Assembly (NCBI RefSeq): GCF_000215745.1 | Contig: NC_015663.1 | Coordinates: forward strand, 3,472,001 to 3,536,000 | Length of the DNA: 64,000 nt | DNA from: Klebsiella aerogenes KCTC 2190 | GTDB lineage: Bacteria; Pseudomonadota; Gammaproteobacteria; Enterobacterales; Enterobacteriaceae | Reading direction: 5' to 3' | Shown: one piece after another, positions 5,228 to 27,046 of the stretch | Layout: every line of letters starts with the position of its first letter | Numbering within the stretch: position 1 is the stretch's first letter | The notes under the pieces: generated by a model | Seen by the model: only the letters and a program-made list of their open reading frames with translations | What the model was told of the DNA's origin: nothing | Databases searched by the model: none | Program-made: the position numbers and the translations under genes

Positions 5228-5375
5228 TTTGCTCTTAATCAAGAGCCCTCTTAAGACTTCAATATTATAAAAATAACATAATTTATTATCGAATAAATAT
5301 ATTGAAAACAATGAGCCTATAAGGCTATGTATATTTTAGTGTGTCATTTAAGTGTTGAAATAGGTGAAGAAAATA

Positions 5376-6482: not shown

Positions 6483-6551
6483 TTTGTTATATATAAAGCT
6501 AAGGGCACAATTAGAACATGTGCTGTTTATATCACTATGAGATTGACGATT

Positions 6552-7916
6552 ATGAATCAAAACATACTGAGTGCATTTATTGATAGCAGTAAATCGACAG
6601 GGTTCCATAAGCTATTACTAGGGGTTTGCACGTTTGTTATTATTTTTTCAGGCTATGAACTTTCAGTTTTCGGCGCTATCGTTCCGGTTGTTATTCGTGA
6701 GTGGGAAATTAGCCCTACAGAGATTGGTTTTATCGGTAGTTCAGCAATGTTTGGTATGATGTTTGGTGCAGTACTGCTAAGCTGGATGGCCGATAAATAT
6801 GGTGTGAAGAAAATGTTGATATCCTCAATATTTATCTTTAATTTTTTTATCGTCATGGCAACATTTACAAATAATGGATTTACTTTTGGCCTTTGTCGCT
6901 TTATGGCTGGCGTGGGGAGTGGTGGTGCGACTCCCATTGTTATCTCCTTGCTCACGGAGTATTCACCCAAATCAAATAAGGCAAAAATGGTTGCAATTGC
7001 AATCTGTGGTAACCAGATTGGAGGGATGTTGGCTCCACTAGTAGCAATAAATGTGATGCCAAAATTTGGTTGGGAGCCAGTCTTATGGTTATCTATTGTT
7101 CCATTACTATTAATTCCTGTACTCATTAAGGTCATTCCAGAGTCAGCTAGATTTCTTGCAAAAACTAACCAAACTGAAAAACTTGACCGGATCCTAAAAA
7201 AAATTGATGTTGAGTACAAAGATACACAAACTAAAATTGAAAGGAGCATGAAAGGAATTCCTGTTGAAGGTAAGCCATCAGATAAAGTCTCATACTCCGT
7301 ACTTTTTAATAAGAAATACTTTGTCGGTACAGTGCTGATAACATTAATTTATATTTGTGGACTGCTTACCATAAATGGCGTTAACATTTGGTTACCACAG
7401 GTTATGAACCAAAATGGTTATGCATTAGGTTCAAGTCTTACTTTCTCAATAGTTTTGAACTTAGGCACTCTGATTGGTACCATTCTTTGGGCTGCTGCAG
7501 TTGACAAAGTTGGTTTTAGAATCTTGATGCCAGTAATCTATATTGCTGGTTCAATAAGCCTATTCTGTATGGGAATTAGGGCAAATTTGATTATACTCTA
7601 TTTATTCGTCGGTCTTATAGGCATGTTCGCATTTGCCGCCCATTCTCTAATGAACTCTTTCGCTTCACAGTATTATCCTGGTGAAATAAGAACTACGGGT
7701 GTCGGATTGGCTAACGCTACAGGTAGGGTTGGCGGTATGTTAGGGCCGATTATTGGCGGGATGCTTTTGACGGCTAATGTTTCATTAACAACATGGTTCC
7801 TGGCCTTTGCCATTCCTGGGGTTATTGCAGCACTATCGATGATTCTTATTAATGTACACAAACATTATATCAACAAAAGATATATGCTATCGAGTGAAAT
7901 GCTCGCAAAACAATAG
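6552..7916 (+). CDS. MFS transporter, aromatic acid:H+ symporter-like (paralog 2)
   Basis: Inner-membrane 12-helix carrier of 454 aa, AAHS-like. The second ATG (6552, MNQNIL) is chosen over 6537 because it aligns with the MNND start of the paralog at 2556 and has GAG upstream. Features include GYELSVFGAIVPVV in helix 1, the loop MADKYGVKKML after helix 2, and RFMAGVGSGGATPIVISLL in helices 4-5. It lies immediately downstream of the porin gene and ends at a bidirectional terminator facing the LysR gene. A probable proton-coupled importer for the compound that enters through the porin; the ligand is inferred to be aromatic from the family only. Confidence 0.87.
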   Translation: MNQNILSAFIDSSKSTGFHKLLLGVCTFVIIFSGYELSVFGAIVPVVIREWEISPTEIGFIGSSAMFGMMFGAVLLSWMADKYGVKKMLISSIFIFNFFIVMATFTNNGFTFGLCRFMAGVGSGGATPIVISLLTEYSPKSNKAKMVAIAICGNQIGGMLAPLVAINVMPKFGWEPVLWLSIVPLLLIPVLIKVIPESARFLAKTNQTEKLDRILKKIDVEYKDTQTKIERSMKGIPVEGKPSDKVSYSVLFNKKYFVGTVLITLIYICGLLTINGVNIWLPQVMNQNGYALGSSLTFSIVLNLGTLIGTILWAAAVDKVGFRILMPVIYIAGSISLFCMGIRANLIILYLFVGLIGMFAFAAHSLMNSFASQYYPGEIRTTGVGLANATGRVGGMLGPIIGGMLLTANVSLTTWFLAFAIPGVIAALSMILINVHKHYINKRYMLSSEMLAKQ

Positions 7917-9169: not shown

Positions 9170-10342
9170 ATGGAGATAGGTAATTACACAAAAAAACAAA
9201 ACAGCGTTGCTTTAGTGCGTGAATTTTTGCTCAAAGAAGGTCCTCAATCTCAAGCTTCCATATCTAGGAAAACTGGGTTATCACCCGCTATGGTAAATTA
9301 TGTCGTTAAAAAACTGCGTGAATTAGGTCATGCAGAACTACATTGGGTCAATGGCAGGGAATGTCTTGTATCGTTAATATACAAGAAAGGTTTATATTTC
9401 TCTGTATTGGTATCTATAGATAAAATTACCTGTGTGCTTTTTTTGTTTGAGTTGGAAAAAAAAATTACCCTTGTATATCCTGTAGCACAAGATGCACCTG
9501 AGGAAAACAATCCATATACGGTTGTTAAAATTATTAATTCTATTCTCGACGAAAACGAATTGACTATTACGGATGTCTCTGGGATCGCTATAAGCATTAT
9601 AGCCCCGCTCGATATTAATAGCGAAACTATCATTTCATGGTCAGCTGGTCGATTACCGGGATGGCGTGATATTAAGATTAAGTCCTTCTTCGAAAATGAA
9701 TTAAAAATCCCGGTTGTTATAGGTAACGATGCTAACCATTCGACGATGGCTGAATGGGTATGGGGTGTTGGTCGAGGTATTGATAATTTTGTTTATATTG
9801 CGTGCTCCAAGCAAATAGGTGGTGGAATTATTATCAATAACCATATCTATAAAGGTGGAAATGGTATGGCTGCAGAGTTTGGTCATCTGATCATCGATAA
9901 TTCAGGACCAGTTTGTTTTTGCGGATGCCGAGGCTGTCTCAATACCTTCATTTCAGAGCGGGCAATTATAATGAATTTATCAAAATCAGAGAGTTATAAG
10001 AATTCTTTAAATGAGATAATTCTAGCTGCTTCTGATGGTGACGCCGCATGTCAGCGGGTGTTGTTTGAAGCTGGCAGAGATCTTGGCAAAGCTTTAGCAA
10101 ACATAGCGAAAATTTTAGCCCCAGGAGTGATTGCGATAGGCGGTGATCTTTCGACCGCAGGGCCATTATTTTTTGATAGTCTTATGGCTACTATTGAAGA
10201 ACATAACCTTGGCGCAGTCTCAACAACCATTGATTTTAAACTCGCTCAACTGACAAACCAACCTGAAATACTGGGTGGTATTGCTGCTCTGCTGGAGCAA
10301 AACAACCAAGGAATGAATCATCTTCCTGACTGGATGAAGTGA
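9170..10342 (+). CDS. ROK-family transcriptional repressor (NagC/Mlc/XylR-like)
   Basis: Cytoplasmic 390-aa protein: N-terminal winged HTH (residues about 26-52, ASISRKTGLSPAMVNYVVKKL) fused to a ROK sugar-kinase-like domain. Sugar-binding signature residues are visible: GND at 185-187, AEFGH with Glu236 and His239, and the zinc motif CFCGCRGC with Cys251, Cys253 and Cys256. The HTH shows that it is a regulator, not a kinase. AGGAG precedes the ATG at proper spacing. Its place between the NodD-like gene and the catabolic operon suggests that it represses the flanking genes and responds to a released sugar such as glucose or a 3-keto hexose; the effector is an inference. Confidence 0.9.
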   Translation: MEIGNYTKKQNSVALVREFLLKEGPQSQASISRKTGLSPAMVNYVVKKLRELGHAELHWVNGRECLVSLIYKKGLYFSVLVSIDKITCVLFLFELEKKITLVYPVAQDAPEENNPYTVVKIINSILDENELTITDVSGIAISIIAPLDINSETIISWSAGRLPGWRDIKIKSFFENELKIPVVIGNDANHSTMAEWVWGVGRGIDNFVYIACSKQIGGGIIINNHIYKGGNGMAAEFGHLIIDNSGPVCFCGCRGCLNTFISERAIIMNLSKSESYKNSLNEIILAASDGDAACQRVLFEAGRDLGKALANIAKILAPGVIAIGGDLSTAGPLFFDSLMATIEEHNLGAVSTTIDFKLAQLTNQPEILGGIAALLEQNNQGMNHLPDWMK

Positions 10343-10370: not shown

Positions 10371-11090
10371 TCATTTAAAAAAATTAGTCCAAAGCCAGGA
10401 TAGGGGCATTGCCCACAATAATGCAGGAAGCATATTGGCTACTGGAAACATCTTAATGCCGCAAATTCTCAACCCTGTTGCCATCATTACCAAGCCTCCA
10501 ACCGCATAGAAATCGTTGCGCATAACTGTAGTCGTTAGTGGCAGAAGTAAAACTGCACTATATGCAAGTAGTAACTGAATAATCAACTGTGGAACAAAAA
10601 GGATGGCTACTGAGTAGCCGAGTCTAGTTGCAAAAAGTACGGCACAGAAAAAATCCATGAACGATTTAGTAACAAGCACGGAGGAATTTCCGTTCATACC
10701 CTCGTTCATTGCGCCGACAATGCCAGTTCCACTGGCTCCGAATAAAATAATTAAAGCTACGAAAATATTCAAAAACTCCTCGTTTGTTATTTCTCCTCGA
10801 GGTTTGGGTAAAATCGATTCTATACTGTATTTGGCTTTTGTGGCAATTTTATTTATTTTCTTTTCAAGCCTTATTAATTCACCAGTGAGGGCTCCTAGGA
10901 TGCCAGATAATACCAGCACAGGCATGTTGACGGTATCCATTATTAATATAACTGACATTGCCATTGAACAAATGCCGAACATTAATGGCATACCTTCATT
11001 AAGACGTCGGGGGATCCAAGGTGATAAAAGACTTCCGCCTACTGCGCCTACGATAATTGCAATACTATTTATATATGGGCCAATAATCAC
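10371..11090 (-). CDS. DUF554 family membrane protein (YqgA-like)
   Basis: Inner-membrane protein of 239 aa with about seven hydrophobic segments. The opening MIIGPYINSIAIIVGAVGGS and the block FGASGTGIVGAMNEGM are typical of the DUF554/YqgA family, whose function is not established. Starts at GTG 11090 with GGAG upstream; 35 bases after the glucokinase gene on the same strand, so it is the last gene of the minus-strand operon. It converges with the ROK gene with 28 bases between stops. A transport role for a pathway product or ion is conceivable but unsupported. Confidence 0.85.
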   Translation of the reverse strand: MIIGPYINSIAIIVGAVGGSLLSPWIPRRLNEGMPLMFGICSMAMSVILIMDTVNMPVLVLSGILGALTGELIRLEKKINKIATKAKYSIESILPKPRGEITNEEFLNIFVALIILFGASGTGIVGAMNEGMNGNSSVLVTKSFMDFFCAVLFATRLGYSVAILFVPQLIIQLLLAYSAVLLLPLTTTVMRNDFYAVGGLVMMATGLRICGIKMFPVANMLPALLWAMPLSWLWTNFFK

Positions 11091-11125
11091 GCTAATATCT
11101 CCAAGTATCCCCGCTTATTGCAGGC

Positions 11126-12094
11126 TTAATTTAATGAATAACCAAGAAATTGACGCATATGTGCACCCGCACCCAATAGTCCTGGCTGAGGATTAGTTAT
11201 TAAGAACACCGGGATATCTTTGAGATATTCGCAGAAGCGACCTTTATCTTCAAATGCATTCCTAAATCCTGATGATTTGAAAAACTCCAGGAAGCGTGGA
11301 ACAATCCCGCCAGCAATATATACTCCACCAAAGGTCCCCATAGTCAGAGCCAGATTGCCACCAAATCGACCTAATAAAATGCAGAAAAGGCTGAGCGCGC
11401 GGCGGCAGTCTACACATTCGTTAGCTAAAGCTCGGTCAGTGATGTCCTTTGGTTTGAGTTTCTCTGGAATTCTTCCATCGACTTTTACAATACCCTTATA
11501 TAGATTAACTAGCCCAGGACCAGATAGTACTCGCTCGTATGAAATACGGCCATGATCTTTTCTCAGCACGGAGAGTATGCGATCTTCTTCTTCGCTGTTC
11601 GGGGCAAAATCAACATGGCCACCTTCGCCTGGAAGGCTGATAACTTGATTCTCAGACTGTATAAGATGGCAAACCCCTAAACCGGTACCGGCACCATAAA
11701 CGGCTACCGGTTTATTTCGCTCTGGATTCCCACCACCAAGTTTTAGCAAGTCTGAATCTTTCAACATTGGAATAGACATGGAAACAGCTTTGAAATCATT
11801 AATGACCTCAAGATGTGTAAGACCAAGGTTTAGCTTCATCGAGTTTATCGAAAATGCCCAACTATGATTAGTCATGTCAACCCAGTCATTTGTTATAGGA
11901 CAAGCAATGGCAATACAAGCTTCATCAACAGTTACGTGCTGGCCTTCAAGATAGTGCGTGATGACATCTTGTAGAGTTGCGTAATCATTTGCCGAATAGG
12001 TATGGATATGCGAGATTTTACCGTCAGCCACATCGCACAGAGCTAGCCTGGCATTTGTACCGCCGACATCGCCAACAAGTATAAATTTAGACAT
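11126..12094 (-). CDS. glk: Glucokinase (Glk type)
   Basis: Cytoplasmic ATP-dependent phosphorylation of free D-glucose to glucose 6-phosphate. The 322-aa product matches enterobacterial Glk over its full length (E. coli Glk has 321 aa): phosphate-binding [13 protein letters not shown] at the N-terminus, VINDFKAVS with the catalytic Asp, [21 protein letters not shown] and GRFGGNLAL. The ATG at 12094 is chosen because AAGGTG lies 7 bases upstream and this start aligns with E. coli Glk. It belongs to the minus-strand operon and is presumably an extra copy, since the housekeeping glk lies elsewhere in enterobacteria. Its presence predicts that the pathway yields unphosphorylated glucose in the cytoplasm. 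Confidence 0.93.
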
Positions 12095-12128
12095 TAAATA
12101 CACCTTAATGAATTGGTAATAAAGCGAC

Positions 12129-12163
12129 ATTGGTGAGCTTTCAGGGATGTTCAGTTCACCAAT
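12129..12163 (-). other. Intercistronic hairpin between GMC and glk genes
   Basis: Inverted repeat ATTGGTGAGCT / AGTTCACCAAT (11 bp with one G-U pair, 13-base loop) without a following T-run. Likely an RNA-stabilising or processing element rather than a terminator. Confidence 0.55.
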
Positions 12164-12186
12164 TTGACACGTTACAAATCAGGATG

Positions 12187-13854
12187 CTAAAGCTGACCAT
12201 TTTTATATTGGGTTGCCGCGTAATCACAAGCTCGCGCTGTAATTGCCATCATAGTTAATGTTGGACCAACAGTACCGCTGGTTACAAAACATGCGCCATC
12301 TGTGACAAAAACATTGCTCGCATCCCAACATTGGTTGTAATTGTTAAGCACTGAACTTTCCGGATCATCTCCCATCCTTGCACCACCGCTTTCATGGATA
12401 GCAGCACCCAGACCGACACTTTTCTTAAAGGAGAGTCGGAAAATTGTTTTCGTAAGAAGTGTTTCGTTGGGCATTGCATTCCGCCCATCTTCAAGCCCAA
12501 GTGCTGTTCCAGCAAAATCGATGTTGTAATTGCACTCCGTCACCATCTCCTTAATTGCACGTAATTGCTCTTTCAAGACGAGCAGATCGTTGGCTCCAAA
12601 AGAACAATTAATGTGTGGAGCAGGGATTCCCCATGCATCTTTCTTTTTAAAATTCAGCGTTATACAATTTTCTTTTCGCGGTAACATTTCGCCAAAACCC
12701 ATAAGTCCAAACTGTGCCGGGCTCCCTGGCGGAACATAACCTCGTCCAATAACCCCCTGGAACGCAAACCCACGTAGATAGTTTTTCTGGCTATCCTGGC
12801 CTAGGTTCTGGAAGCGAGGAATAACAATTCCGCCTGCGGGACGACAGAAGGGATCCTGGATAATTGTTTTATCGTATTCCCAACCCTTACTGTCAGGCAC
12901 AGAACCGGCAATAAGGCTTGGTGTCTGTTCTAGAAAATAACGTCCTAACAATCCCGTAGAATTACCAATGCCTTCAGGATGACGTGAAGAGCGCGAATTT
13001 AGCAGTAAGCGCACGGATTCAATTGCTGAGGCGCATAGCATGACCATGCCTCCGCGTACGCTATGTTCCTGCTTTGTTAATCTGTCTATAAATGTAACGC
13101 CGACTGCTTTACCACTTACCGGATCTACATCAATTTGCTTTGCTATAGCATCAGTACGTAACTCCAGACGACCTGTATCGATTGCTGCTTGTACCCCTAC
13201 TGGAATTCGCTTCAGGTTTGGGGTTGAAAAACGCCAACTGATAACTTTGCGTTCGGGCCACTTAGATTCGACCTTACTTTTAAATGCCTTTTCCGGTTTT
13301 GTTAGAATCGGTGCTTGAATATATTTACCATCGGGAAGATTCGGAATATTTTCTTCAGTCCCGTAAACCCCGAGGAATTCTTCAATGTGCGTATACCAAG
13401 GGGACAGTTCCTCGTAGCTGATCGGCCAATCCTGGCCGTAACCGTCGTAACTTGCAGCTTTGAAATCGTAGTCAGACATCCGTTGCAAAACTCGGCCATA
13501 TGTATGGAGTCTTCCACCGAGCTGTCTGCCACGGATCCAAAGAAAATATTGCCCTTTTGGTGTTGTGTAAGGGTTTTGCCAGTCATTCACAAAGAGATGG
13601 CGGTACTCGTTACTCATATACGCTGCACGCGCCTGTAAAGGCTGTCCAGTTAATGCAATTTTAAAACGGGCAAGTGCATCTATTTTTTTTATCTTTTCGT
13701 TATTACCCGGCGTTATGGGGAAATCTTTTTCGCCTAAAAATGGGCCAGCCTCCAGCAAAATTATATTCATCCCTTTCTCAGTTAATTCCTTCACCGCGAT
13801 GCTGCCAGCTACTCCTGAGCCGATAACAATTGCGTCATAAAATTCTTTTTTCAT
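12187..13854 (-). CDS. GMC-family FAD oxidoreductase, candidate glycoside 3-oxidase (CarA-like)
   Basis: Cytoplasmic flavoprotein of 555 aa without signal peptide. FAD-binding GSGVAG at residues 12-17 followed by an acidic strand end (LLEAGP); substrate and catalytic region at the C-terminus with HESGGARMG (His at about 487) and DGACFVTSGTVGPTLTMMA. In most GMC enzymes the last motif reads NPT; here it is GPT, so the second catalytic residue may be supplied differently. Start 13854 (MKKEFYDA) has GAGG five bases upstream and replaces a TTG six codons earlier. GMC proteins in bacterial C-glycoside clusters (CarA) oxidise the sugar 3-hydroxyl to a ketone; I infer the same here from the neighbouring CarB/CarC-like genes. 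Other sugar or polyol oxidations are possible. Confidence 0.85.
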   Translation of the reverse strand: MKKEFYDAIVIGSGVAGSIAVKELTEKGMNIILLEAGPFLGEKDFPITPGNNEKIKKIDALARFKIALTGQPLQARAAYMSNEYRHLFVNDWQNPYTTPKGQYFLWIRGRQLGGRLHTYGRVLQRMSDYDFKAASYDGYGQDWPISYEELSPWYTHIEEFLGVYGTEENIPNLPDGKYIQAPILTKPEKAFKSKVESKWPERKVISWRFSTPNLKRIPVGVQAAIDTGRLELRTDAIAKQIDVDPVSGKAVGVTFIDRLTKQEHSVRGGMVMLCASAIESVRLLLNSRSSRHPEGIGNSTGLLGRYFLEQTPSLIAGSVPDSKGWEYDKTIIQDPFCRPAGGIVIPRFQNLGQDSQKNYLRGFAFQGVIGRGYVPPGSPAQFGLMGFGEMLPRKENCITLNFKKKDAWGIPAPHINCSFGANDLLVLKEQLRAIKEMVTECNYNIDFAGTALGLEDGRNAMPNETLLTKTIFRLSFKKSVGLGAAIHESGGARMGDDPESSVLNNYNQCWDASNVFVTDGACFVTSGTVGPTLTMMAITARACDYAATQYKNGQL

Positions 13855-13910
13855 TTCTGCCTCGGCCGACAATTACCGGTTAATTATTAATTCTGCTAAT
13901 AAATAAAACA

Positions 13911-13932
13911 GGAGATAGCGTGGTCTATCTCC
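13911..13932 (-). other. Intercistronic hairpin between isomerase and GMC genes
   Basis: Perfect 8-bp stem GGAGATAG / CTATCTCC with a 6-base loop; on the minus strand it is followed by a U-rich stretch (TGTTTTATTT), so partial termination or processing inside the operon is possible. Confidence 0.55.
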
Positions 13933-13943
13933 TTTTGCCGAAA

Positions 13944-14999
13944 TCAGGAGATTCCAATCATTTTTTTGATTTCTGAAATATCGTTTCCAGTCTCAGCGAA
14001 ATCATCAAAAGCACGACTGGATACATTGATGATATGGTCTTGGATAAAACGACTTCCTTCCCGCGCACCATCTTCACTGTTTTTCAGGCAACATTCCCAT
14101 TCGAGTACAGCCCAGCCACTGTAATCATATTGAGCGAGCTTGCTAAAAATTGTTTTGAAATCGATCTGTCCATCACCAGGTGAGCGGAATCGTCCGGCGC
14201 GCTGTAGCCAGGGTTGGTACCCACCGTATACACCACTCCGACCATTTTTGTTAAACTCGGCGTCTTTGACGTGAAATGCTTTGATTCTCTCGTGATAAAT
14301 GTCGATGTAATCCAGATAATCAATCTGTTGAAGATGCAAATGGCTTGGGTCAAAGAGGATGTTGCAGCGTGGATGGTAGTTGACCTCATCAAGAAAACGT
14401 TCAAATGTTGCACCGTCATGTAGATCTTCACTTGGGTGAATTTCATAGCAAACGTCGACGCCATGTTCTTCAAAAGTGTTGAGTATTGGCAACCAGCGTT
14501 TCGCCAGTTCTTTAAAGCTTTCATCAAAAAGTACTGTGTTATGAGGTGGCCATGGATAGAGGTATGGCCAAGCGAGGGAACCTGAAAATGTTGCATGTGC
14601 GTTCAGCCCGAGTCGTGCGGATGCAATAGCTGCCTTTTTGACGATACCCACAGCCCATTCCTGCCGGGAGTGTGGGTCGCGCGCAACCCCATTGGGGGCA
14701 AAACCGCTGAAGGGTTGGTCATAAGCAGGATGAACAGCGACAAGTTGTCCTTCCAAATGAGTGGATAATTCGCTAATTTGTAAGCCATGTTCCGCAAGTA
14801 AGGCTTTGACGTCATCGCAATATTGCTGGCTTTGGGCTGCCAGTTCAACGTCAAAGATGTTTTTGTGATTACAAGGAATTTGTAAAGCTTTGAATCCGAG
14901 ATTCGCAGCCCAAATAGCCAGTCCTTCGAGGGTATTAAACGGAGATGTACTTCCAATAAATTGTGAAAGAAAAATGCCAGGACCTTTAAGAGTGTTCAT
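13944..14999 (-). CDS. Sugar phosphate isomerase/epimerase family TIM-barrel protein
   Basis: Cytoplasmic AP-endonuclease-2-type TIM barrel of 351 aa. Likely divalent-metal ligands are Glu186 (CYEIHP), Asp217 (LFDPSHL), His243 (AFHVKDAEF) and Glu300 or Glu302 (VLEWECCLK). Very strong ribosome site GAGGAGG before ATG 14999. This subtype, with the LEWECCLKN ending, is commonly found beside Gfo/Idh and GMC genes. Named isomerases act on hydroxy-ketone sugars; in this context it may hydrate the 2-hydroxy-3-keto-glucal released by lyases, or interconvert 3-keto sugars. It could alternatively be a second deglycosidase alpha-type subunit. Family call is firm, reaction inferred. Confidence 0.85.
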   Translation of the reverse strand: MNTLKGPGIFLSQFIGSTSPFNTLEGLAIWAANLGFKALQIPCNHKNIFDVELAAQSQQYCDDVKALLAEHGLQISELSTHLEGQLVAVHPAYDQPFSGFAPNGVARDPHSRQEWAVGIVKKAAIASARLGLNAHATFSGSLAWPYLYPWPPHNTVLFDESFKELAKRWLPILNTFEEHGVDVCYEIHPSEDLHDGATFERFLDEVNYHPRCNILFDPSHLHLQQIDYLDYIDIYHERIKAFHVKDAEFNKNGRSGVYGGYQPWLQRAGRFRSPGDGQIDFKTIFSKLAQYDYSGWAVLEWECCLKNSEDGAREGSRFIQDHIINVSSRAFDDFAETGNDISEIKKMIGIS

Positions 15000-15051
15000 A
15001 TAACCTCCTCATTAACCGGGGCAATGTTGCTAGAATTGAATGTACGAAACG

Positions 15052-15079
15052 AAGTGGCGCAAATTTAAGTGCGCCACTT
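15052..15079 (-). other. Intercistronic hairpin between Gfo/Idh and isomerase genes
   Basis: Perfect 10-bp stem AAGTGGCGCA / TGCGCCACTT with an 8-base loop, just after the stop codon of the first operon gene; no T-run follows on the minus strand. Confidence 0.6.
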
Positions 15080-15091
15080 AATTAAGAGAGA

Positions 15092-16216
15092 TTAGAACTC
15101 TACTGCCTGACCAGTTTCAGCAGATTTGTAGATTGCTTCCAGCACCTGAGTCACAATGAATGCTTGTTCCGCGGTAACAACTGGTTCCTTGTCGTTTTCA
15201 ATCGCATCAATGAAAGCAGCAAGTTCTGCATCCGCCACACGGAAAGGTTCGTTTCCAAGATCTAATGGACCAGGGCCGCCAAGTACGAATGGCTCAATAT
15301 CTACCAATTCACCAAAGCGCGCAGTATTAAATACAATACTACCTGTGCCGTCTACGGCTGAAGTTGGTGCAGCGGCACCATCACCTACTAATTCGGCACC
15401 AGCCTTTGTACCACAGAGTGTGACCTGTCCTTCACGGGCTTTAAGGATATTCAGCGCCCAGGAAGCCTCCAGGAAGATTGTTGCGCCATTTTCCATTTTG
15501 ATGAAACCGAACGCAGAATCTTCTACGTCGATAGTTTTTGGGTTCCATGGGCCAAACAAATTACCCTCATAATTGTCTTTCATTTTATGGAACACCGAAC
15601 CTGAAACCACCTTCGGCTTATAGTTGTCCATTGTCCACAGGGCAATATCCAGAGCATGGGTACCGATATCAATAAGCGGGCCGCCACCTTGTTTCTCTTT
15701 GTCCAGGAAAACACCCCAGGTAGGAACTGCTTTACGACGAACTGCATGGGCTTTTGCAAAATAGACTTCACCCAAATCACCCTCTGCGCTTGCTTGTTTT
15801 AAGATTTGTACGTCTTTACGGAATCGGTTCTGGTAGCCGATGGTGAGTTTTTTACCAGTACGTTTTGCCGCATCCAGCATTTTCTGCGCATCTGCTGTTG
15901 TTGCCGCCATCGGTTTTTCACAAAGGACATGTTTACCTGCCTCAAGAGCATCTACTGTCAGAGGGCTATGAGAGTTATTAGGAGTCAGAATGTAGACAAC
16001 ATCAATGGAAGTATCTTTAAGTAATTCGTGATGGTCTGAATAAGTTTTCGCTCCGGGGATGCCGAATTTAGCGGCTGCATCAATGGCACGATCAACTTCG
16101 ATATCACAGAAAGCGACCAGGTCTACACGATCTTTGGCTTTTTCAAATGCAGGAAAATGTTTACACACTGCAATACGGCCGCAACCAATAATACCAATAC
16201 GTAATTTTTTAACCAT
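15092..16216 (-). CDS. Gfo/Idh/MocA family NAD(P)-dependent oxidoreductase
   Basis: Cytoplasmic 374-aa dehydrogenase, first gene of the minus-strand operon. N-terminal Rossmann motif GIIGCGRIA (8-16), the family's catalytic EKP at 100-102 (Lys101), and the active-site helix with Asp183 and His187 (LIDIGTHALD). No signal peptide. Members of this family (for example DgpA of puerarin-degrading bacteria and enzymes of the 3-keto-glucoside pathway of Bacteroides) oxidise sugar 3-hydroxyls or reduce 3-keto sugars. With a GMC oxidase already present, reduction of 3-keto-glucose to glucose, feeding the adjacent glucokinase, is the simplest role. Family certain, reaction inferred. Confidence 0.88.
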   Translation of the reverse strand: MVKKLRIGIIGCGRIAVCKHFPAFEKAKDRVDLVAFCDIEVDRAIDAAAKFGIPGAKTYSDHHELLKDTSIDVVYILTPNNSHSPLTVDALEAGKHVLCEKPMAATTADAQKMLDAAKRTGKKLTIGYQNRFRKDVQILKQASAEGDLGEVYFAKAHAVRRKAVPTWGVFLDKEKQGGGPLIDIGTHALDIALWTMDNYKPKVVSGSVFHKMKDNYEGNLFGPWNPKTIDVEDSAFGFIKMENGATIFLEASWALNILKAREGQVTLCGTKAGAELVGDGAAAPTSAVDGTGSIVFNTARFGELVDIEPFVLGGPGPLDLGNEPFRVADAELAAFIDAIENDKEPVVTAEQAFIVTQVLEAIYKSAETGQAVEF

Positions 16217-16286
16217 TTCATTTATCTCCGGCTATAAACCTAATCAGGGCTGTAATTTCTTAAGAGGTTATAACAATAATAATAAT

Positions 16287-16309
16287 TTGATTTGATTGGC
16301 TCAAATCAA
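16287..16309. promoter_or_regulatory. Candidate operator: palindrome TTGATTT-N9-AAATCAA
   Basis: Perfect 7-bp inverted arms with a 9-base spacer, about 71 bases before the Gfo/Idh start codon. The size suits a dimeric repressor such as the ROK protein or a LysR dimer. No second copy was found by eye. Confidence 0.4.
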
Positions 16310-16683
16310 GAAGGTGCTACTGTTATGACGCAAATTAAAAATAAAAGGAAATGGCTTGTATGGATATAGGGTATCGGCCAAGCAGATACCTATCTAAAGT
16401 AGATTTAATAATCGACAGAAATTATAGAGATATTGGTCACATTTTTCCAAATGTACTATCCAATATTGTTTGTTGTTAAACTTAACCTATTGAAAAAAAA
16501 CAAGTTAAAATTCCTGGGTGAGAGTGGATTTTATGGTCAATTAATAATCAATCATTCAATCATATAATTAATTGCCTTTTTATTATTTTTGTTATTTTTT
16601 AGTATCTTATTGTATTTATTGATTATATTTGGTTTTTATTGCAATTGCTTGCGAATGGGTGGTTTTTCATACCATTCAAAAAA

Positions 16684-16699
16684 TGAAGTCTTGATCACA
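16684..16699. promoter_or_regulatory. CRP-like site TGAAGTCTTGATCACA
   Basis: About 101 bases before the MFS start codon; identical at 13 of 16 positions to the site at 4772-4787. Right half TCACA fits CRP; left half is poor. Confidence 0.35.
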
Positions 16700-16799
16700 A
16701 AAAAGAAAACTTTCCATTGTGGGATTTTAATATTTGGAATCTATTAAGGGCCAATAAACTCGTTCAACACCGGTGTCCCTACCAACGGCGGAGTTAAAA

Positions 16800-18071
16800 A
16801 TGCCAAGTTACTTAGTCGAAGATAATTCGAAATCAGTAGACCCATGCGTAAGCAAAGAGAAACCTGTGGGTAATGAAGCGATGACAAAGCCAATGTATAT
16901 ATTTAGCAGGCTTAGTATTCTGATGCTGCTACAATTTGTTGTTTTTGGATCCTGGTTTGCAACGATGGGCTTAGTTTTGTTTACCTATAAGCTCGGCTCC
17001 ATTATCGGTATGGCTTATACACTCTGTGCCATTGCCGCTATTATTTCACCTTTAGTATTTGGTGCTGTAGGTGATCGATTCATTTCATCTGAAAAAATAT
17101 TGGGTTTTTTGCACATTTTAGGTGGTATTGTTCAATTTATGATCCCTGCGTTGGTTGTATCGGGAAACAGCAACGTAATTTTAATCTTCATCTTTATTTA
17201 TATGATTTTCTTCCAACCAACTCAGGGATTGGTTAATTCACTTTCCTTCCAGCATCTTGGTAGTAAAAGTGATTTATATCCCTATCTTCGACTGTTCGCA
17301 ACGGGAGGGTGGGCAGTTGGAGGATTTATTGTTGGGATCCTTGGTTATTCTTCTACTGTAGGAATATTTTATGTGGCAGGAATTTCTAGCATTGTATTGG
17401 GTGGTTATTCTTTCACGCTGCCACGAACTTACCCAAGTGTCAAAGATAAAAAATTCAATGTATTAGATGCGTTAGGATTTCGCTCTCTTCAGCTATTTAA
17501 GAATAGAAATTTTGCAATATTAATGCTTTGTGCATTATTAACGTCAATATCATTGGGTGTATATAACACATATGCCTCAACTTTTATCGGTGCATTAGGT
17601 ATACCTGGTGTTGCTTCTGTCATGGCTTTAGGGCAAATATCAGAAGTGGCATTTATTGTGTTAGTGCCTTTTGTTATTAAACGCATTGGCATGAAATGGG
17701 CATTACTTATTGGTATGGCAATGTGGGGAATTCGCTTTATCATGTTTATCCTTGCCGCGAAAGGCCATCACTGGACCGCAATCATAGGAGTGGGATTACA
17801 TGGACTTTGCAACGATTTTTTCTTAATTATCAGTGCTATGTATCTTGATAGACTTGCGCCACCTGAGCTAAAGGTACAAGCACAAAGCTGGCTGATCATT
17901 GCGATATCTGGTTTTGGGGCTGCGTTTGGTTCTCTTATCTCAGGATACGTGTACTCCACTACAGTCAACCCTGAACAGGAGTACTCATGGATTACACTAT
18001 GGTCAGTTCCAATTAGCATTGCTGTATTAACGACTATTATTTGGCTTATATTGTTTAATGAAGATAAATAA
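16800..18071 (+). CDS. MFS transporter, nucleoside:H+ symporter (NupG/YegT-like) family
   Basis: Inner-membrane 12-helix carrier, 423 aa. Start 16800 (MPSYLVEDN) is preferred over GTG 16773 because GGAG stands six bases upstream. The LSILMLLQFVVFGSWFATMG opening, the ADRF-like loop GDRFISSEK, FFQPTQGLVNSLSFQHL, the LFATGGWAVGG segment and QISEVAFI resemble the NupG/XapB/YegT group, which imports nucleosides and, in some clusters, glycosides. First gene of the plus-strand operon with the deglycosidase-like pair, so it probably imports the intact glycoside. The N-terminal about 38 residues form an unusual hydrophilic extension. Confidence 0.87.
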   Translation: MPSYLVEDNSKSVDPCVSKEKPVGNEAMTKPMYIFSRLSILMLLQFVVFGSWFATMGLVLFTYKLGSIIGMAYTLCAIAAIISPLVFGAVGDRFISSEKILGFLHILGGIVQFMIPALVVSGNSNVILIFIFIYMIFFQPTQGLVNSLSFQHLGSKSDLYPYLRLFATGGWAVGGFIVGILGYSSTVGIFYVAGISSIVLGGYSFTLPRTYPSVKDKKFNVLDALGFRSLQLFKNRNFAILMLCALLTSISLGVYNTYASTFIGALGIPGVASVMALGQISEVAFIVLVPFVIKRIGMKWALLIGMAMWGIRFIMFILAAKGHHWTAIIGVGLHGLCNDFFLIISAMYLDRLAPPELKVQAQSWLIIAISGFGAAFGSLISGYVYSTTVNPEQEYSWITLWSVPISIAVLTTIIWLILFNEDK

Positions 18072-18134
18072 TGTTATGTAAATTGTGAATTTAGGTTTGG
18101 TTTATCAGGATTTAATTAATTTGTTGGAGGAATT

Positions 18135-18587
18135 ATGTTCGATAATTATCTTATTCGCCCGGGAAGTCTAAGAAATGAGAAGGTCAATGGTGAAGTCATT
18201 GGGTTCTCTTTAGCTGTAAGGCATGCAAACTATCGTGGCTGCTATATCTCTTTACATAATGGCTATTACTTGTCTATCGATGGCGTTGAATACCCAAACT
18301 CTGTGCAGACATTTGAAATCAATGGCAAAGGACCTCGCAGTTATGAAGAATTATCTCTCGCTGTATATGAACATTGGGATTATGGCGATGATGGTATTTT
18401 GCATGTAGCACTCCCTGGGGGATTAAAACCGGGCAAGCACACCGTTCTTTTCCAGCAATCGGTCCTTGCGGCTTATGGATATTTACCTACAGACGAAACG
18501 TGGGTTAAGACTCCACCTGTGCCAGGAAATGGGGCAGGATCTGACAAAACTCCGCATATTGTGAAGTTCGAAATGATTGTTGAATAA
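18135..18587 (+). CDS. DUF6379 protein, C-glycoside deglycosidase beta-subunit-like (CarB/DgpB/DfgB)
   Basis: Small cytoplasmic beta-rich protein of 150 aa. The pattern NYLIRPGSLRN, VNGEVIGFSLAVRHANYRG, YYLSIDGVEYP, RSYEEL and PGGLKPGKHTV matches my knowledge of the DUF6379 / C-glycoside deglycosidase beta family, where this small subunit packs against a TIM-barrel alpha subunit and completes the active site. The alpha-like gene follows after 10 bases, as in known car, dgp and dfg clusters. GGAGG precedes the ATG at good spacing. Together the two are predicted to cleave the bond between the anomeric carbon of a 3-keto sugar and an aglycone. Confidence is high on family, moderate on substrate. 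Confidence 0.82.
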   Translation: MFDNYLIRPGSLRNEKVNGEVIGFSLAVRHANYRGCYISLHNGYYLSIDGVEYPNSVQTFEINGKGPRSYEELSLAVYEHWDYGDDGILHVALPGGLKPGKHTVLFQQSVLAAYGYLPTDETWVKTPPVPGNGAGSDKTPHIVKFEMIVE

Positions 18588-18597
18588 GGTGAATAAA

Positions 18598-19707
18598 ATG
18601 AAACGTGGTGTATCCCTATATAGTTACCAGCAGTCTCAATTCTTTAAGGAGTCAAACCTTGAGTCGCAGCTCAATGAAGTTGCGAATAATTTGTATGGTG
18701 CTGATGGTATTGAACTCATCGATGAAATGTCGATCAAATATCCTGTACCTGATAAGGCATTCATGCAGCGCTGGTATCGCCTGATTGACATTCATGGCCT
18801 TAAGCCTGTTGCTATGGATGTTAGTATGGACGTGTTGCAGTTTCGCACACACGTTATGAACCATGATGAATGTGCTGAGCGTCTTAGAAGTGATATCAAA
18901 CTTGCTAAAATGCTGGGCTTCAGCATTGTTCGCGTATTGTCGATTGTTCCTTTGGATGTAATGGTTAAAGCACTGCCACTGGCTGAAGCACTTGATATTC
19001 GTATCGGTAAAGAGATACATCAGCCTATGTCGTTAGAAGGCCGTCAGGTTAGTGAAATCATTGAATTTAGTGAGAAAAATCATACTCGCCATTTAGGTAT
19101 TGTTCCTGATTTTGGTATCTTCGGTACACGTCCTTCAGAAGCACAGTTAGGATGGTTTGAGCGTCGGGGGGCTAACCCTGAAGCCTCAAATGCGGCAGTT
19201 AAACTTGCAGGGTTGGTAAAGACCGATCCCCAAACGTTCAATGTGGCGAACCAAACTGCCGGGAATGTCCGCGCTGCCTTTGGCCGCTTTATTGCGACCG
19301 GCGAATGTGAGGACGAAATGAAAGTTTGTTTCAAGGCGGTGAAAACTCTTGCAGAAGAGTTTATTAAACAACCTAAACCTCTGGATTATACGGTGGTTGG
19401 GGAAGGATTGACATTGTCGAACACTTCAGTCGAGACGTTGCGCGAAATCTGTCCTCATATCACGCATGTTCATGCCAAGTTCAACAACATGTCCGAAATA
19501 CCAGATAAGCCGGGCCAGTATCAGGATATTGCGATTGACTACGTATCTGCAATCGACGCTCTGCGTCGTGGTGGTTACGAGGGATATCTCAACTCGGAAT
19601 ATGAAGGTCAACGTTATTTCCAGGATCGCGGTCGAGAATTCATGATGGATGAATTTGAGCAGGTCCGTCGACACCAAGAAATGCTTCGCCGTCTAATCAC
19701 GGCTTGA
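18598..19707 (+). CDS. TIM-barrel protein, C-glycoside deglycosidase alpha-subunit-like (CarC/DgpC/DfgA)
   Basis: Cytoplasmic sugar phosphate isomerase/epimerase-type barrel of 369 aa, start 18598 (MKRGVSLYSYQQ) with AGGTGA upstream. Candidate metal ligands: Glu139 and His141 (GKEIHQP), Asp171 (VPDFGIF), His290/His292 (THVHAKF) and Glu334 (NSEYEG). The length and the MKRGVSLYSY opening fit the alpha subunits of the Mn-dependent C-deglycosylating enzymes DgpC, CarC and DfgA, which convert 3-keto C-glycosides to aglycone plus a 3-keto-glucal. Coupled to the DUF6379 gene by a 10-base gap, suggesting stoichiometric expression of an alpha/beta complex. An O-glycoside lyase activity on 3-keto glucosides is the main alternative. 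Confidence 0.85.
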   Translation: MKRGVSLYSYQQSQFFKESNLESQLNEVANNLYGADGIELIDEMSIKYPVPDKAFMQRWYRLIDIHGLKPVAMDVSMDVLQFRTHVMNHDECAERLRSDIKLAKMLGFSIVRVLSIVPLDVMVKALPLAEALDIRIGKEIHQPMSLEGRQVSEIIEFSEKNHTRHLGIVPDFGIFGTRPSEAQLGWFERRGANPEASNAAVKLAGLVKTDPQTFNVANQTAGNVRAAFGRFIATGECEDEMKVCFKAVKTLAEEFIKQPKPLDYTVVGEGLTLSNTSVETLREICPHITHVHAKFNNMSEIPDKPGQYQDIAIDYVSAIDALRRGGYEGYLNSEYEGQRYFQDRGREFMMDEFEQVRRHQEMLRRLITA

Positions 19708-19715
19708 TTACCACG

Positions 19716-19739
19716 ACCTGTCACCCCACGGTGGCAGGT
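19716..19739 (+). other. Intercistronic hairpin before the lactonase gene
   Basis: Stem ACCTGTCACC / GGTGGCAGGT (10 bp, one G-U) with a 4-base loop, no T-run; 8 bases after the alpha-subunit-like stop codon. Confidence 0.55.
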
Positions 19740-19765
19740 TCAATCTGACCTTAAAGGGATTTATA

Positions 19766-21094
19766 ATGAGTTATGTACAGAATTCATTAGTGACTAATGC
19801 ATTATTATTGCTGTGCAGTGTTGCTAGCGGAAATTCTGCGCTGGCTGAGACTCTGAAATCAAGTGCGCAACAGGTTGATAAGACGATGAATACGACTTCT
19901 GCTAAAGATAAAATCATTTCTGACAATGCGTCAAACATTGTGTTTGTCGGAACATATGGAGATGAACATCAACCCGGTGGAATATATTCTCTACGGATTA
20001 GTGAGACAGGGAAACAAATTGAACAACTGGGGCATTTGGCAAATCCTAAGTTATCCGGATATTTGATCTATGATGCCAAAACGACAACATTGTATTCCGT
20101 TGACGAACGCAAGAATGACGGTCGAGGCCCGGTAGAGCCAGCCGCGAGTGTGATGGCCTTTTCAGTGAATCTGGAAAATGGTCACTTGAAACAACTGAAT
20201 GAGCAGCGTGCTCCAGGCCCACGGCCGACCTATCTAAGCCTTGATAGCCAGAATCGAAGATTGTTTACTGCCAACCATGGTGATTTTGAACATGTGGAGA
20301 AGGTGGTATTCAAAGACGAGAAATGGACGTCAGAGTATGTCTATGATGATTCTACCGTCATTATGTATGGCTTAAATAAAGATGGTTCTATTGCAGGGAT
20401 TAATGACCTTGTTGTTCTACAGGGACATGGGAAAGATCCGAACCGTTCAAAACAGGCTGGGGGACACGCACAAGCAAGCCCGCATGCGCACAGTGCAGTT
20501 ATTTCTCCTGATGGTAATCATCTGTTAGTTTGCGATAAAGGGACAGATCAGGTTCTGGTTTATTCTGTTGGTGATAAATTGACACTAGTTAACAGTTATC
20601 AGTTTCCGGAAGAATCTGCACCTCGTCATTTGGTGTTTGCAGACAATCAGCGGCTATATCTCGATCTTGAAATATCCTCTGAACTGGCATCTATGGAGTT
20701 CAATCCACAAACTGGCAGTTTGAAACTACTCGATAAAATTTCAACATTGGATTCTGGTTTCCACGGCCTTAACGAACCTGCTGAAATAAGACTTCATCCT
20801 AACCATCGATTTGTATATGTAAATAATCGTGGTGAGGATACGATCGCGTGGTACAGCATTGGTGGCAAAGGGAAACTAATGCGTCTTGGGTCAGTGAAAC
20901 TCGCAAAATCGATTCACCCGGGGCTCGCATCACGTAGTTTTGCTTTTGAACCTAATGGCCGTTATATGATTTCAGCAGATCGTCCAGATAATAAAATTAA
21001 AGTTTATAGTGTTAATAGTGACAATGGGGCATTAACCTTTATTTCAGAATTTACCGTTCCGCAACCTGCATTTTTGACATTCGCAACTAAATAA
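19766..21094 (+). CDS. Secreted lactonase-family beta-propeller (6-phosphogluconolactonase-like)
   Basis: 442 aa with a signal peptide (hydrophobic NALLLLCSVASG, cleavage after ALA near residue 27), hence periplasmic, followed by a seven-bladed propeller of the lactonase (YbhE-type Pgl) family: blade motifs FVGTYGDEHQPGGIYSLRI, RPTYLSLDSQNRRLFTANHG, HAHSAVISPDGNHLLVCDKG and EIRLHPNHRFVYVNNRGEDTIAWY are clear. Cytosolic relatives hydrolyse 6-phosphogluconolactone; a periplasmic form must act on an unphosphorylated lactone or glycoside, or may bind sugar. Its partner genes suggest a step before import. AAGGG lies before the ATG. Family certain, substrate unknown. Confidence 0.87.
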   Translation: MSYVQNSLVTNALLLLCSVASGNSALAETLKSSAQQVDKTMNTTSAKDKIISDNASNIVFVGTYGDEHQPGGIYSLRISETGKQIEQLGHLANPKLSGYLIYDAKTTTLYSVDERKNDGRGPVEPAASVMAFSVNLENGHLKQLNEQRAPGPRPTYLSLDSQNRRLFTANHGDFEHVEKVVFKDEKWTSEYVYDDSTVIMYGLNKDGSIAGINDLVVLQGHGKDPNRSKQAGGHAQASPHAHSAVISPDGNHLLVCDKGTDQVLVYSVGDKLTLVNSYQFPEESAPRHLVFADNQRLYLDLEISSELASMEFNPQTGSLKLLDKISTLDSGFHGLNEPAEIRLHPNHRFVYVNNRGEDTIAWYSIGGKGKLMRLGSVKLAKSIHPGLASRSFAFEPNGRYMISADRPDNKIKVYSVNSDNGALTFISEFTVPQPAFLTFATK

Positions 21095-21096
21095 AA

Positions 21097-21127
21097 ATAA
21101 GCTAATGGCAATCTGTCATTAGCTTAT
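21097..21127 (+). other. Intercistronic hairpin before the OprB-type porin gene
   Basis: Perfect 11-bp stem ATAAGCTAATG / CATTAGCTTAT with a 9-base loop, followed by GAAAAACTTTT. Could be a weak terminator or a stabilising stem between the lactonase and porin genes. Confidence 0.55.
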
Positions 21128-21268
21128 GAAAAACTTTTAATTTAACCCTCTTATGAGGTGACTTAACTACTTTTTTACTTTTATATAAATTATTCCGATT
21201 TTAAGGGGTAGCTATTCCCTTATACCACTGTGATAGAAGAACTTACCTTTATAACGAGAGTAATAATA

Positions 21269-22615
21269 ATGACTGATACCTTTCAATTTAAATCTGGTTT
21301 AGTGATGGCGTCCCCTTTTCTTATTGCATTTGGATGTAACGCTACAGCGGAAACGACGGCTTGGAGTCCGACTGTGCTAGGTTATGAACCCCCCACACCG
21401 GGTTTATTTGGCGATTGGGGTGGGATGCGAACAACGCTGGCCGATAATGGGTTTAATTATGCCTTAATTTATTCTACCGAAAGTGCTTATAATGCTGACG
21501 GTGGCTTTAATTCTGATAAACATTTTGCTTTCACCGATCAAACTGCATTGCTTTTTAATCAAGATCTTGAACAATTAACCGGTATTAGCGATGCAAAAAT
21601 TGAAGGCCTGATTACTAACCGCAACCATGATGACAATTTAACGACAGAGAGAGTTCAGGACCCTCGGGCACGCTTCAATGATTTAACCCAAGAAGTATGG
21701 GGAGGAGGGTCGATAACCCGATTGGGTTACCTTACCTTCAGCCGCACCTTCGATGATCGAAAATTGAAATGGCGCATTGGTCAGATGAACTACCAACAGA
21801 CCTTTGATCAGAGTATTCCATGTGATTTTCAGGTCCTTTCGTTATGTGGTGGCAAGTCCGCATATGCGCAGACCTGGAGTACATGGAACATCCATTCATG
21901 GGGAACAACGTTTGCCTATGCTCTGACACCTGAACTCACGATTAAGACTGGCGTGCTCGAACAAAACCCCAGCGCGTCTGATAGATCTCGGGCATGGTCA
22001 TTTAATGCGAACGGCAGCAAAGGCGTTTTATTGCCTCTTGAAGCAGAATATAAAACAATTGTGAATGGACTGTCTGGGGTGTATAACGCAGGTGTCTTAT
22101 ATACAAATTCTCCACAGTACGACCTTTATACACCAGTAGGTAAGACAACTAAGGTTTACGATAATACATGGTTTTTCTGGGGAGGATTCAACCAACAAAT
22201 AACGCAGAAGCCAGGCGATCGGGAACAGGGGATGAGTATATCGGCCAGCATGAGTCTCGCGGACCAACGTACAAATCCTTACCACATAGTTGCCTCAGCA
22301 GAAATGCGTTATCGCGGTCTTTTTGATGCTCGCCCACAGGATTATCTTGGATTAGGTGTTAGTTGGTTTGATATGAGTAATCATCTCGCACACAGTGCAC
22401 GTGAATCGAATAACATAAATAACATCACGGATTATTATAATCCACTTTATCAACCTGTAGCTGGTAAAGCCGTCAATTTTGATCTTTATTATCGCTTGAG
22501 ACCAGTCTCATGGCTGGATATTCAACCAGATATACAGTATTGGATTAATCCAGGTGGGATTAAAGAAACCAAAAATGCTCTCGTGATTGGACTTAAAACA
22601 GCAGTAAGATTCTAA
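21269..22615 (+). CDS. OprB-family carbohydrate-selective porin
   Basis: Outer-membrane protein of 448 aa from ATG 21269 (MTDTFQFKSG), with GAGAG upstream; the frame also has a GTG at 21230 that lacks a ribosome site. Signal peptide ends near TAE (residue 28 or so). The LFGDWGGMRTTLADNG block is the typical opening of OprB/carbohydrate porins, and the chain ends in a beta-strand with terminal phenylalanine (KTAVRF). OprB relatives allow uptake of glucose and other sugars across the outer membrane. Last gene of the plus-strand operon, after a 174-base gap containing a hairpin. Probably admits the glycoside substrate. Confidence 0.88.
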   Translation: MTDTFQFKSGLVMASPFLIAFGCNATAETTAWSPTVLGYEPPTPGLFGDWGGMRTTLADNGFNYALIYSTESAYNADGGFNSDKHFAFTDQTALLFNQDLEQLTGISDAKIEGLITNRNHDDNLTTERVQDPRARFNDLTQEVWGGGSITRLGYLTFSRTFDDRKLKWRIGQMNYQQTFDQSIPCDFQVLSLCGGKSAYAQTWSTWNIHSWGTTFAYALTPELTIKTGVLEQNPSASDRSRAWSFNANGSKGVLLPLEAEYKTIVNGLSGVYNAGVLYTNSPQYDLYTPVGKTTKVYDNTWFFWGGFNQQITQKPGDREQGMSISASMSLADQRTNPYHIVASAEMRYRGLFDARPQDYLGLGVSWFDMSNHLAHSARESNNINNITDYYNPLYQPVAGKAVNFDLYYRLRPVSWLDIQPDIQYWINPGGIKETKNALVIGLKTAVRF

Positions 22616-23690: not shown

Positions 23691-23778
23691 TGGCGGTGAG
23701 GGGGGGATTCGAACCCCCGATACGTTGCCGTATACACACTTTCCAGGCGTGCTCCTTCAGCCACTCGGACACCTCACC
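23691..23778 (-). tRNA. serX: tRNA-Ser (anticodon GGA), copy 1
   Basis: 88 bases, encoded CCA end, long class II variable arm (TGTGTATACGGCAACGTATC region), anticodon loop CTGGAAA giving GGA, T-arm GGGGGTTCGAATCCCCC. Sequence identical to the second copy at 26923-27010 and, as far as I recall, to enterobacterial serX/serW. Has its own strong promoter. Confidence 0.97.
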
Positions 23779-23819
23779 ATATTGTCTTGCTGCTCACCTT
23801 GGGTGGGCAACGGGGCGCT

Positions 23820-26922: not shown

Positions 26923-27010
26923 TGGCGGTGAGGGGGGGATTCGAACCCCCGATACGTTGCCGTATACACACTTTCCAGGCGTGCTCCTTCAGCCACTCGG
27001 ACACCTCACC
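26923..27010 (-). tRNA. serX: tRNA-Ser (anticodon GGA), copy 2
   Basis: 88 bases, identical to copy 1 at 23691-23778, including the encoded CCA. It lies next to ghrA, the position of serX in E. coli, so this is probably the ancestral copy. Confidence 0.97.
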
Positions 27011-27046
27011 ATATTGTCTTTCCCGTTGTTGCTGGGAACGGGCGCT

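Follow-up and report, generated by a model that had tools for sequence, protein, structure and literature searches.

A predicted beta-elimination island of Klebsiella aerogenes with a separate clade of C-glycoside lyase and bergenin as its probable substrate

Which glycoside do two divergent operons of Klebsiella aerogenes KCTC 2190 serve, and how much of its breakdown do they encode? The genes lie in a 64,000-nucleotide stretch of the chromosome (NC_015663.1, positions 3,472,001 to 3,536,000; hereafter, the window), and an initial annotation, made from the letters alone, had read them as a candidate complete C-glycoside or 3-keto-glycoside catabolic island with a CarB/CarC-like lyase pair. 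We hold with high confidence that the window contains a 3-keto-glycoside beta-elimination island, and we think it probable, from the sequences and neighborhoods of its relatives, that its native substrates are lactone C-glucosides of the bergenin type. A check of the open reading frames (ORFs) of the window recovered the genes at the coordinates first assigned to them. Five genes occupy the minus strand from 10371 to 16216, and five occupy the plus strand from 16773 to 22615. Profile matches agreed with the earlier names of the GMC enzyme, the Gfo/Idh protein, the second TIM barrel, the glucokinase, the major facilitator superfamily (MFS) carrier, the lactonase, and the carbohydrate porin.

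18135..18587, plus strand: C-glycoside deglycosidase (CGD) beta subunit (PF19906 CGDB, formerly DUF6379), 150 amino acids, by profile match
18598..19707, plus strand: CGD alpha subunit, a TIM-barrel lyase with a metal site, 369 amino acids, by solved-chain matches and residues
19766..21094, plus strand: lactonase-type propeller (PF10282) whose N terminus carries a leader resembling a signal peptide, by profile and 6igb match; proposed bergenin lactone hydrolase
21230..22615, plus strand: OprB-type carbohydrate porin (PF04966, 222 bits; 59% identical to a Pantoea plasmid porin)
16773..18071, plus strand: MFS carrier of the Nuc_H_symport family, with a relative of at least 40% identity in 13 of 19 clade loci; proposed glycoside importer
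15092..16216, minus strand: DgpA-type Gfo/Idh/MocA oxidoreductase, by DgpA chain matches; proposed to couple glycoside 3-oxidation to 3-keto-glucose reduction
13944..14999, minus strand: 2-hydroxy-3-keto-glucal hydratase of the 8ro4 type (529 bits, residues 1 to 350)
12187..13872, minus strand: GMC flavin oxidoreductase resembling fructose/glucose dehydrogenases (no export leader seen); proposed to act as the 3-dehydrogenase that primes the route
11126..12130, minus strand: glucokinase (NF001414, 572 bits; cut-off, 502)
10371..11090, minus strand: DUF554 membrane protein, by profile match; the Pantoea set has a DUF554 gene too

The lyase pair identifies the pathway class. The 150-residue protein matches PF19906 (E = 1.3e-30; 106 bits against a cut-off of 27.6), as its earlier assignment to DUF6379 had implied, and its nearest solved chains are DUF6379 proteins, among them DfgB and DgpB. 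Its stop codon is separated from the alpha ATG at 18598 by the 10 bases originally reported. The 369-residue protein, for which a comparison with CGD alpha chains had been proposed, does match them (best, 8qvc; 160 bits). The initial annotation had correctly numbered Glu139, Asp171, His292, and Glu334; with His141, Lys294, and Glu336 added to these, all seven metal and catalytic residues of CGDs are kept. We mapped them by the numbering published in PMC8563793, where the alpha site is described as a 1His/2Glu/1Asp/1Lys metal site plus a catalytic His and Glu. Among the 39 rows of the clade described below, E139, H141, D171, K294, E334, and E336 are invariant, and H292 is present in 37. Because four in-clade beta-alpha fusion proteins, all PF19906 bearing and one nearly linkerless, occur among the 120 alpha matches listed, the sequences support the view that alpha and beta work as one pair.

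In a tree of 32 alpha proteins, built without the solved chains, the window protein falls in a 15-row group with 100/100 support, a long stem, and an enteric subgroup inside it. Its identity to alpha proteins of other-clade plasmid loci is 25 to 34% over nearly the full length. By this comparison, the window lyase belongs to a separate clade in which we found no characterized member, and the pair is thus not CarB/CarC-like in the narrow sense first proposed. The beta subunit has a C-terminal extension (residues ∼107 to 140) that is conserved in the clade: 57 of 150 beta positions are invariant across 19 clade rows, with 20 of 34 falling in residues 107 to 140 versus 37 of 116 elsewhere. This most invariant stretch corresponds roughly, by numbering, to the loop R107-G120 of AgCGD2 beta, which adjoins the aglycone (PMC8563793), and it fits a single aglycone type.

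The host genome of the window is a single contig of 5.28 Mb. The clade is rare among the genomes sampled, with a clade alpha found in 1 of 20 genomes drawn from the genus Klebsiella. PF19906 occurred in 3 of 295 genomes of the family, including an Enterobacter EA-1-type genome (G046) and one with an other-clade alpha (G092), and in 1 of 369 genomes of the class, the window's own. Alpha relatives were present in 3 of 398 genomes of the phylum, with only that of the window falling in the clade. Enteric alpha relatives among the matches listed include those named Klebsiella pneumoniae and Pantoea piersonii, and megablast of the island against the Escherichia coli collection gave no match. Related clusters were found at 16 loci. 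The Enterobacter sp. EA-1 cluster has many broken frames, reflecting sequencing error or decay (the genome is 49% complete).

The remaining steps are represented by the other island enzymes. The Gfo/Idh protein is close to solved DgpA chains (9m3d DgpA1, 476 bits; 7xr9 DgpA, 425 bits). The GMC enzyme is unlike the CGD-adjacent GMCs of Deinococcus aetherius and one Streptomyces, which stand in here for the CarA and PurA sequences; the 24% identity to them, over about 330 residues, argues against a CarA/PurA-type oxidase. Its matches are instead to fructose/glucose dehydrogenase large subunits (about 98 bits) and to GMC proteins of Rhizobium, Pantoea, and Novosphingobium (50 to 54%). A periplasmic complex of this enzyme with a gamma subunit is disfavored, as the sole PF13618 match in the genome is about 285 kb away and no leader was seen on the GMC. 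The second TIM barrel matches the solved 2-hydroxy-3-keto-glucal hydratase 8ro4 over its full length (529 bits), for which reason we do not favor a role as an O-glycoside eliminase. An Agrobacterium-type four-enzyme operon with an OGE-type eliminase was not found at the island, where the eliminase is the CGD pair. The homologies therefore uphold the C-glycoside or 3-keto-glycoside reading and support the encoding of all five steps: oxidation, elimination, hydration, reduction, and phosphorylation.

The propeller offers the first indication of the substrate. It matches the periplasmic gluconolactonase 6igb at 93 bits, and tblastn with the window genes as queries found it in all 16 related loci, directly beside alpha in 14. 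In a wider set, it was present in 18 of 19 clade loci and in none of 19 other-clade controls (0/13, plus 0/6 further plasmid loci), all 19 of which yielded a beta gene. Matches by tblastn were counted from 40% identity (30% for the propeller) across 60% of the reference, and the stretches compared were unequal, mostly 20 kb on each side or to the contig end, with about 8 to 15 kb on each side for annotated-plasmid loci in both groups. Furthermore, 27 of the 120 alpha clusters listed share a contig with one of the 120 propeller clusters listed, contigs being taken as the same when the longest contigs of the clusters had identical lengths. A leader is present in the window propeller (by eye and by a crude script), in propellers named Klebsiella oxytoca and Kosakonia, and in several 436-residue paralogues; the crude test found none in 102 of the 120 propellers listed. 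The compartment of lactone opening therefore probably differs among these proteins.

The strongest alternative, which we nevertheless regard as unlikely, is that the module is a generalist one serving the C-glucosides (and O-glucosides) of plant flavonoids, xanthones, or anthrones, the propeller being a side activity. The encoded steps would suit any beta-glucoside, and CGD enzymes accept several aglycones and O-glycosides (PMC10628242; PMC8563793). Against it, the propeller and a demethylase (below) are each found in 0 of 19 other-clade loci at the thresholds used, and some of those loci carry VOC, FAH-hydrolase, and cyclase genes instead. The aglycone-side beta stretch is also unusually invariant in the clade, in keeping with one aglycone type. 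On this neighborhood evidence, puerarin, orientin, mangiferin, and aloin, the substrates first suggested, are less likely than bergenin.

The second indication comes from the aglycone side. On O-DEMETHYLASES and gallate, aromatic O-demethylases belonging to two families unrelated to each other turn up at many of the clade loci. Genes of the DesA/LigM type lie near the loci of one Streptomyces, three Amycolatopsis, an actinomycete metagenome-assembled genome, and Novosphingobium flavum, and Rieske VanAB-type genes lie near those of Caballeronia, Actinomycetospora, Nocardia, Actinoplanes, Novosphingobium resinovorum, and Pantoea. An O-demethylase was found in 12 of 18 clade loci versus 0 of 19 controls (P = 1e-5 by Fisher's test), a comparison biased toward the clade in that the tblastn references came from clade loci; without the two reference-source loci, the proportion was 10 of 16 (P = 4e-5). 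The 18 loci omit the window and Enterobacter EA-1, the inclusion of which gives 12 of 20 (P = 5e-5), as well as an Anaerolineales locus on a 4.5-kb contig. Independence is limited (three clade loci are from Amycolatopsis and two are from N. flavum), and counted by genus from a hand-made list, the proportion was 9 of 15. Subthreshold control matches were VanA-like in one locus (28%) and VanB-like in two (34 to 35%). The DesA family had 28 matches in 15 genomes, 7 of them near clade loci versus 0.20 expected. A further Streptomyces contig starts with the folate genes that elsewhere come after DesA, which is suggestive only.

Ring-cleavage genes point the same way. Gallate dioxygenase matches above cut-off occur in the N. 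resinovorum cluster and in N. flavum, there directly after the hydratase. The enzyme 4-oxalomesaconate tautomerase marks the gallate route; together with a CHA aldolase, it scores above cut-off in Actinomycetospora, Actinoplanes, and Pantoea. Seven clade loci, one of them with a partial match only, have nearby a VOC extradiol dioxygenase that scores under its family cut-offs and might cleave the ring of gallate or O-methylgallate as an enzyme of an unrelated type; conserved copies are at L071:11113-12069, L092:5820-6767, and L118:18885-19853.

The plasmid p174224 of Pantoea piersonii (NZ_CP115898) brings both sides together. It carries 11 island gene families, rearranged, in a gene set spanning 25,966 to 55,852, in which the Gfo/Idh is a different paralogue (29% identical to that of the window). 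Directly beside the island genes are an MFS gene resembling aromatic acid carriers, VanB-like and VanA-like genes, galB, a CHA aldolase, and 4-oxalomesaconate tautomerase. The name galB is that of the record itself, and in NCBIfam, the protein has only below-cut-off deacetylase matches. Further neighbors are a VOC dioxygenase, a porin, a gene resembling methionine synthase, and a second propeller, which has a leader. By gene content, the plasmid places the glucoside genes next to an apparently complete gallate route.

A less probable alternative than the generalist one is that the substrate is another glucoside, O- or C-linked, of a methoxylated hydroxybenzoate or coumarin, with the propeller opening a different lactone, for example one from ring cleavage. 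The demethylase and gallate-pathway genes would suit any source of O-methylgallate, and CGD also cleaves 3-keto O-glucosides (PMC10628242). Against this, the propeller tracks the lyase (18 of 19 clade loci, among them loci with no aromatic gene found) more tightly than aromatic genes track it, and C-glycosides are cleaved by beta-subunit lyases rather than by OGE (PMC10628242). That the pair is an isomerase or epimerase of keto sugars unrelated to aromatic glycosides is very improbable: TIM-barrel relatives do include such enzymes, but the seven lyase residues are kept, a PF19906 partner is adjacent, a hydratase relative is present, and aromatic genes lie near the relatives.

Taken in combination, genes for a lactone, a methoxyl group, gallate, and a C-glucoside point to bergenin. 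Bergenin has both ortho and para hydroxyls. The CGD mechanism requires a hydroxyl at one of these positions of the aglycone (PMC10628242), and bergenin is the lactone of 4-O-methylgallic acid 2-C-beta-D-glucoside (PMC11053098). A DgpA enzyme oxidizes bergenin in vitro to oxo-bergenin, and DgpA takes 3-oxo-glucose as an oxidant (PMC11239390); Dorea is reported not to metabolize bergenin (PMC10772555).

From the gene identities, residues, clade, and gene associations, we infer the activities, step order, substrate, and aglycone fate as follows. Bergenin would be imported by the porins and the MFS carrier. Opening of its delta-lactone by the propeller would then yield 4-O-methylgallate 2-C-glucoside, a step that is probably periplasmic in Klebsiella and cytosolic in most of the relatives listed. 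The GMC enzyme would prime oxidation of the glucose 3-OH, which the DgpA-type enzyme would sustain. The alpha/beta metal lyase would then split the C-C bond by beta-elimination, yielding 4-O-methylgallate and 2-hydroxy-3-keto-glucal, and the hydratase would convert the latter to 3-keto-glucose. In the window, the DgpA step may close with the hydratase into a redox-neutral loop, DgpA moving hydride from the glycoside to 3-keto-glucose, which becomes glucose; glucokinase would then form glucose 6-phosphate. The window's own genome yielded no gallate dioxygenase, and the window itself had neither a DesA nor a VanA relative. Export is therefore the probable fate of the aglycone, perhaps through the MFS proteins at 1213 to 2556 and 6537 to 7916, and Klebsiella would keep only the sugar. 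In relatives such as Pantoea p174224, genes for O-demethylation and for the gallate pathway are present as well. A nucleoside substrate, as the family name Nuc_H_symport of the importer might suggest, has no other support.

Several observations weigh against bergenin. The function of PF10282 proteins is not readable from sequence, and the propeller is also listed from enteric species with no clade alpha listed. It is missing from the Niallia sister locus (50% identity). A demethylase was not seen in the stretches examined at 6 of the 18 clade loci nor in the window or Enterobacter EA-1. The DesA-type proteins scored fall below curated cut-offs, so that they may differ, or the aglycone may. DesA/LigM and VanA are known to act on meta-methoxyl groups, and that of bergenin is para. 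Among the controls, a Deinococcus locus has a VOC relative (36%), two annotated loci name VOC genes, and two (G1444 and Croceicoccus marinus) have ring-cleavage genes. Finally, the window GMC type is found in 14 of 19 clade loci, the DgpA-type Gfo is found in only 3, and the 8ro4-type hydratase is found in only 2, and the redox loop is thus not clade-wide in the form seen in the window.

Most remaining clade loci have other Gfo and hydratase-like paralogues in those places. The solved "putative DNA-binding protein" 2zds matches one such TIM barrel (L028:12486-13505) at 514 bits; this type is 29% identical to the window hydratase, is present in many clade loci, and probably does the same hydration step. 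On its plasmid, Niallia sp. Man26 has a small amidohydrolase, an aromatic acid symporter, a glucose phosphotransferase system, and a ROK glucokinase; the amidohydrolase might stand in for the lactonase.

The pathway class is known, while the clade, the propeller, and the likely substrate are new as far as we have seen. CGDs are known from several phyla (PMC8563793), and PurABC homologues have been named in Klebsiella variicola and K. pneumoniae (PMC12724307). DgpBC/PuCGD, DfgAB/EuCGD, CarBC/MiCGD, PurBC, and AgCGD share with the window pair a PF19906 beta and a TIM-barrel alpha, adjacent genes, and the same metal and catalytic residues; the window pair differs in its clade, an alpha insertion (about residues 195 to 275), a longer beta C terminus, and lactonase and demethylase neighbors. 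The self-contained route first proposed for a Klebsiella-like bacterium stands in that its steps are encoded but not as a novelty, as a four-step route has been published for Agrobacterium (PMC10628242). That nonhydrolytic glucoside pathway (GlycDH, AtOGE, AtHYD, and Gfo) has the same sequence of steps, and the window hydratase is near 8ro4; in the window, however, CGD alpha/beta replaces OGE, the Gfo is of the DgpA type, and a propeller, a glucokinase, and a porin adjoin. The window Gfo/Idh resembles intestinal DgpA/D3dgpA, of which D3dgpA oxidizes bergenin (PMC11239390), but its partners are a lyase from another clade and a GMC enzyme. PpgL (6igb) and other PF10282 propellers are sequence relatives of the window propeller, which has a leader too, yet the score to PpgL is only about 93 bits and the proposed substrate is an aryl delta-lactone. 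Our searches of the open-access literature, with subscription papers outside the scope, turned up no publication on enzymes with which bacteria cleave bergenin, and the words lactonase and bergenin are absent from the main texts of PMC8563793, PMC10628242, PMC12724307, and PMC10807413.

We put it at slightly better than even that this is the first recognized pathway dedicated to bergenin, in which a separate C-C lyase clade works with a lactone-opening propeller. On that reading, Pantoea would carry the genes for both sugar and aglycone on a plasmid, Klebsiella would have a chromosomal island for the sugar alone, and the pathway would be spread over Actinomycetota, Pseudomonadota, and other groups, in which mutually unrelated demethylases and ring-cleavage enzymes were recruited to deal with one and the same aglycone. 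The bergenin reading turns a lyase clade in which we found no characterized member into a precise test on one known natural product. If true, it would account for the ability of soil and enteric bacteria to use a medicinal C-glucoside left untouched by Dorea, a characterized gut degrader, assign a role to the many propellers labeled "lactonase family," and place a bergenin pathway on a Klebsiella-group chromosome and on the plasmid of a Pantoea blood isolate.

The island is not a chance assembly, because its gene families recur on the P. piersonii plasmid and related clusters occur at the 16 loci. It is probably a mobile catabolic module, and we consider an aromatic C-glucoside, most likely bergenin or norbergenin, the probable target of such a module. 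A 6,249-bp record labeled Klebsiella aerogenes matches part of it at 99.8%. A 262-residue "xylose isomerase, partial" labeled Salmonella enterica Kentucky is 92% identical to alpha over 71% of its length, which suggests that the island may travel among enterics. Four further genes lie in the window to the left of the two operons, and three of them, the porin and both MFS genes, share the low-GC stretch of the island.

9170..10342, plus strand: ROK-family transcriptional regulator with a helix-turn-helix, by profile match; probable island regulator
5364..6482, plus strand: Porin_1 general porin, 64% identical to the porin beside the second propeller on the Pantoea plasmid
6537..7916, plus strand: MFS protein, best match aromatic acid/H+ symport family (TIGR00895, 303 bits, below the cut-off of 418.55); possible aglycone carrier
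1213..2556, minus strand: second MFS protein, best match the same family (TIGR00895, 237 bits, below the cut-off of 418.55)

Since 13 of 19 clade loci have a ROK relative at 38% identity or more, we count the ROK gene as part of the island set; an operator search found weak inverted repeats only. GC content is 0.33 to 0.46 from about 1 to 23 kb of the window versus 0.49 to 0.60 to the right, and the low-GC stretch is flanked by a phoH-like gene and a duplicated tRNA-Ser region. No integrase was found among the ORFs scanned, the extent of that search. A decayed IS630-like transposase remnant lies within the island (3109 to 3966). The tRNA-Ser(gga) is inside a 163-bp, 98% direct repeat (23626 to 23788 and 26858 to 27020), a region that is likely the edge of the inserted island. 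A 56-bp unit occurs four times near this repeat, and an RtT RNA lies at 23505 to 23643.

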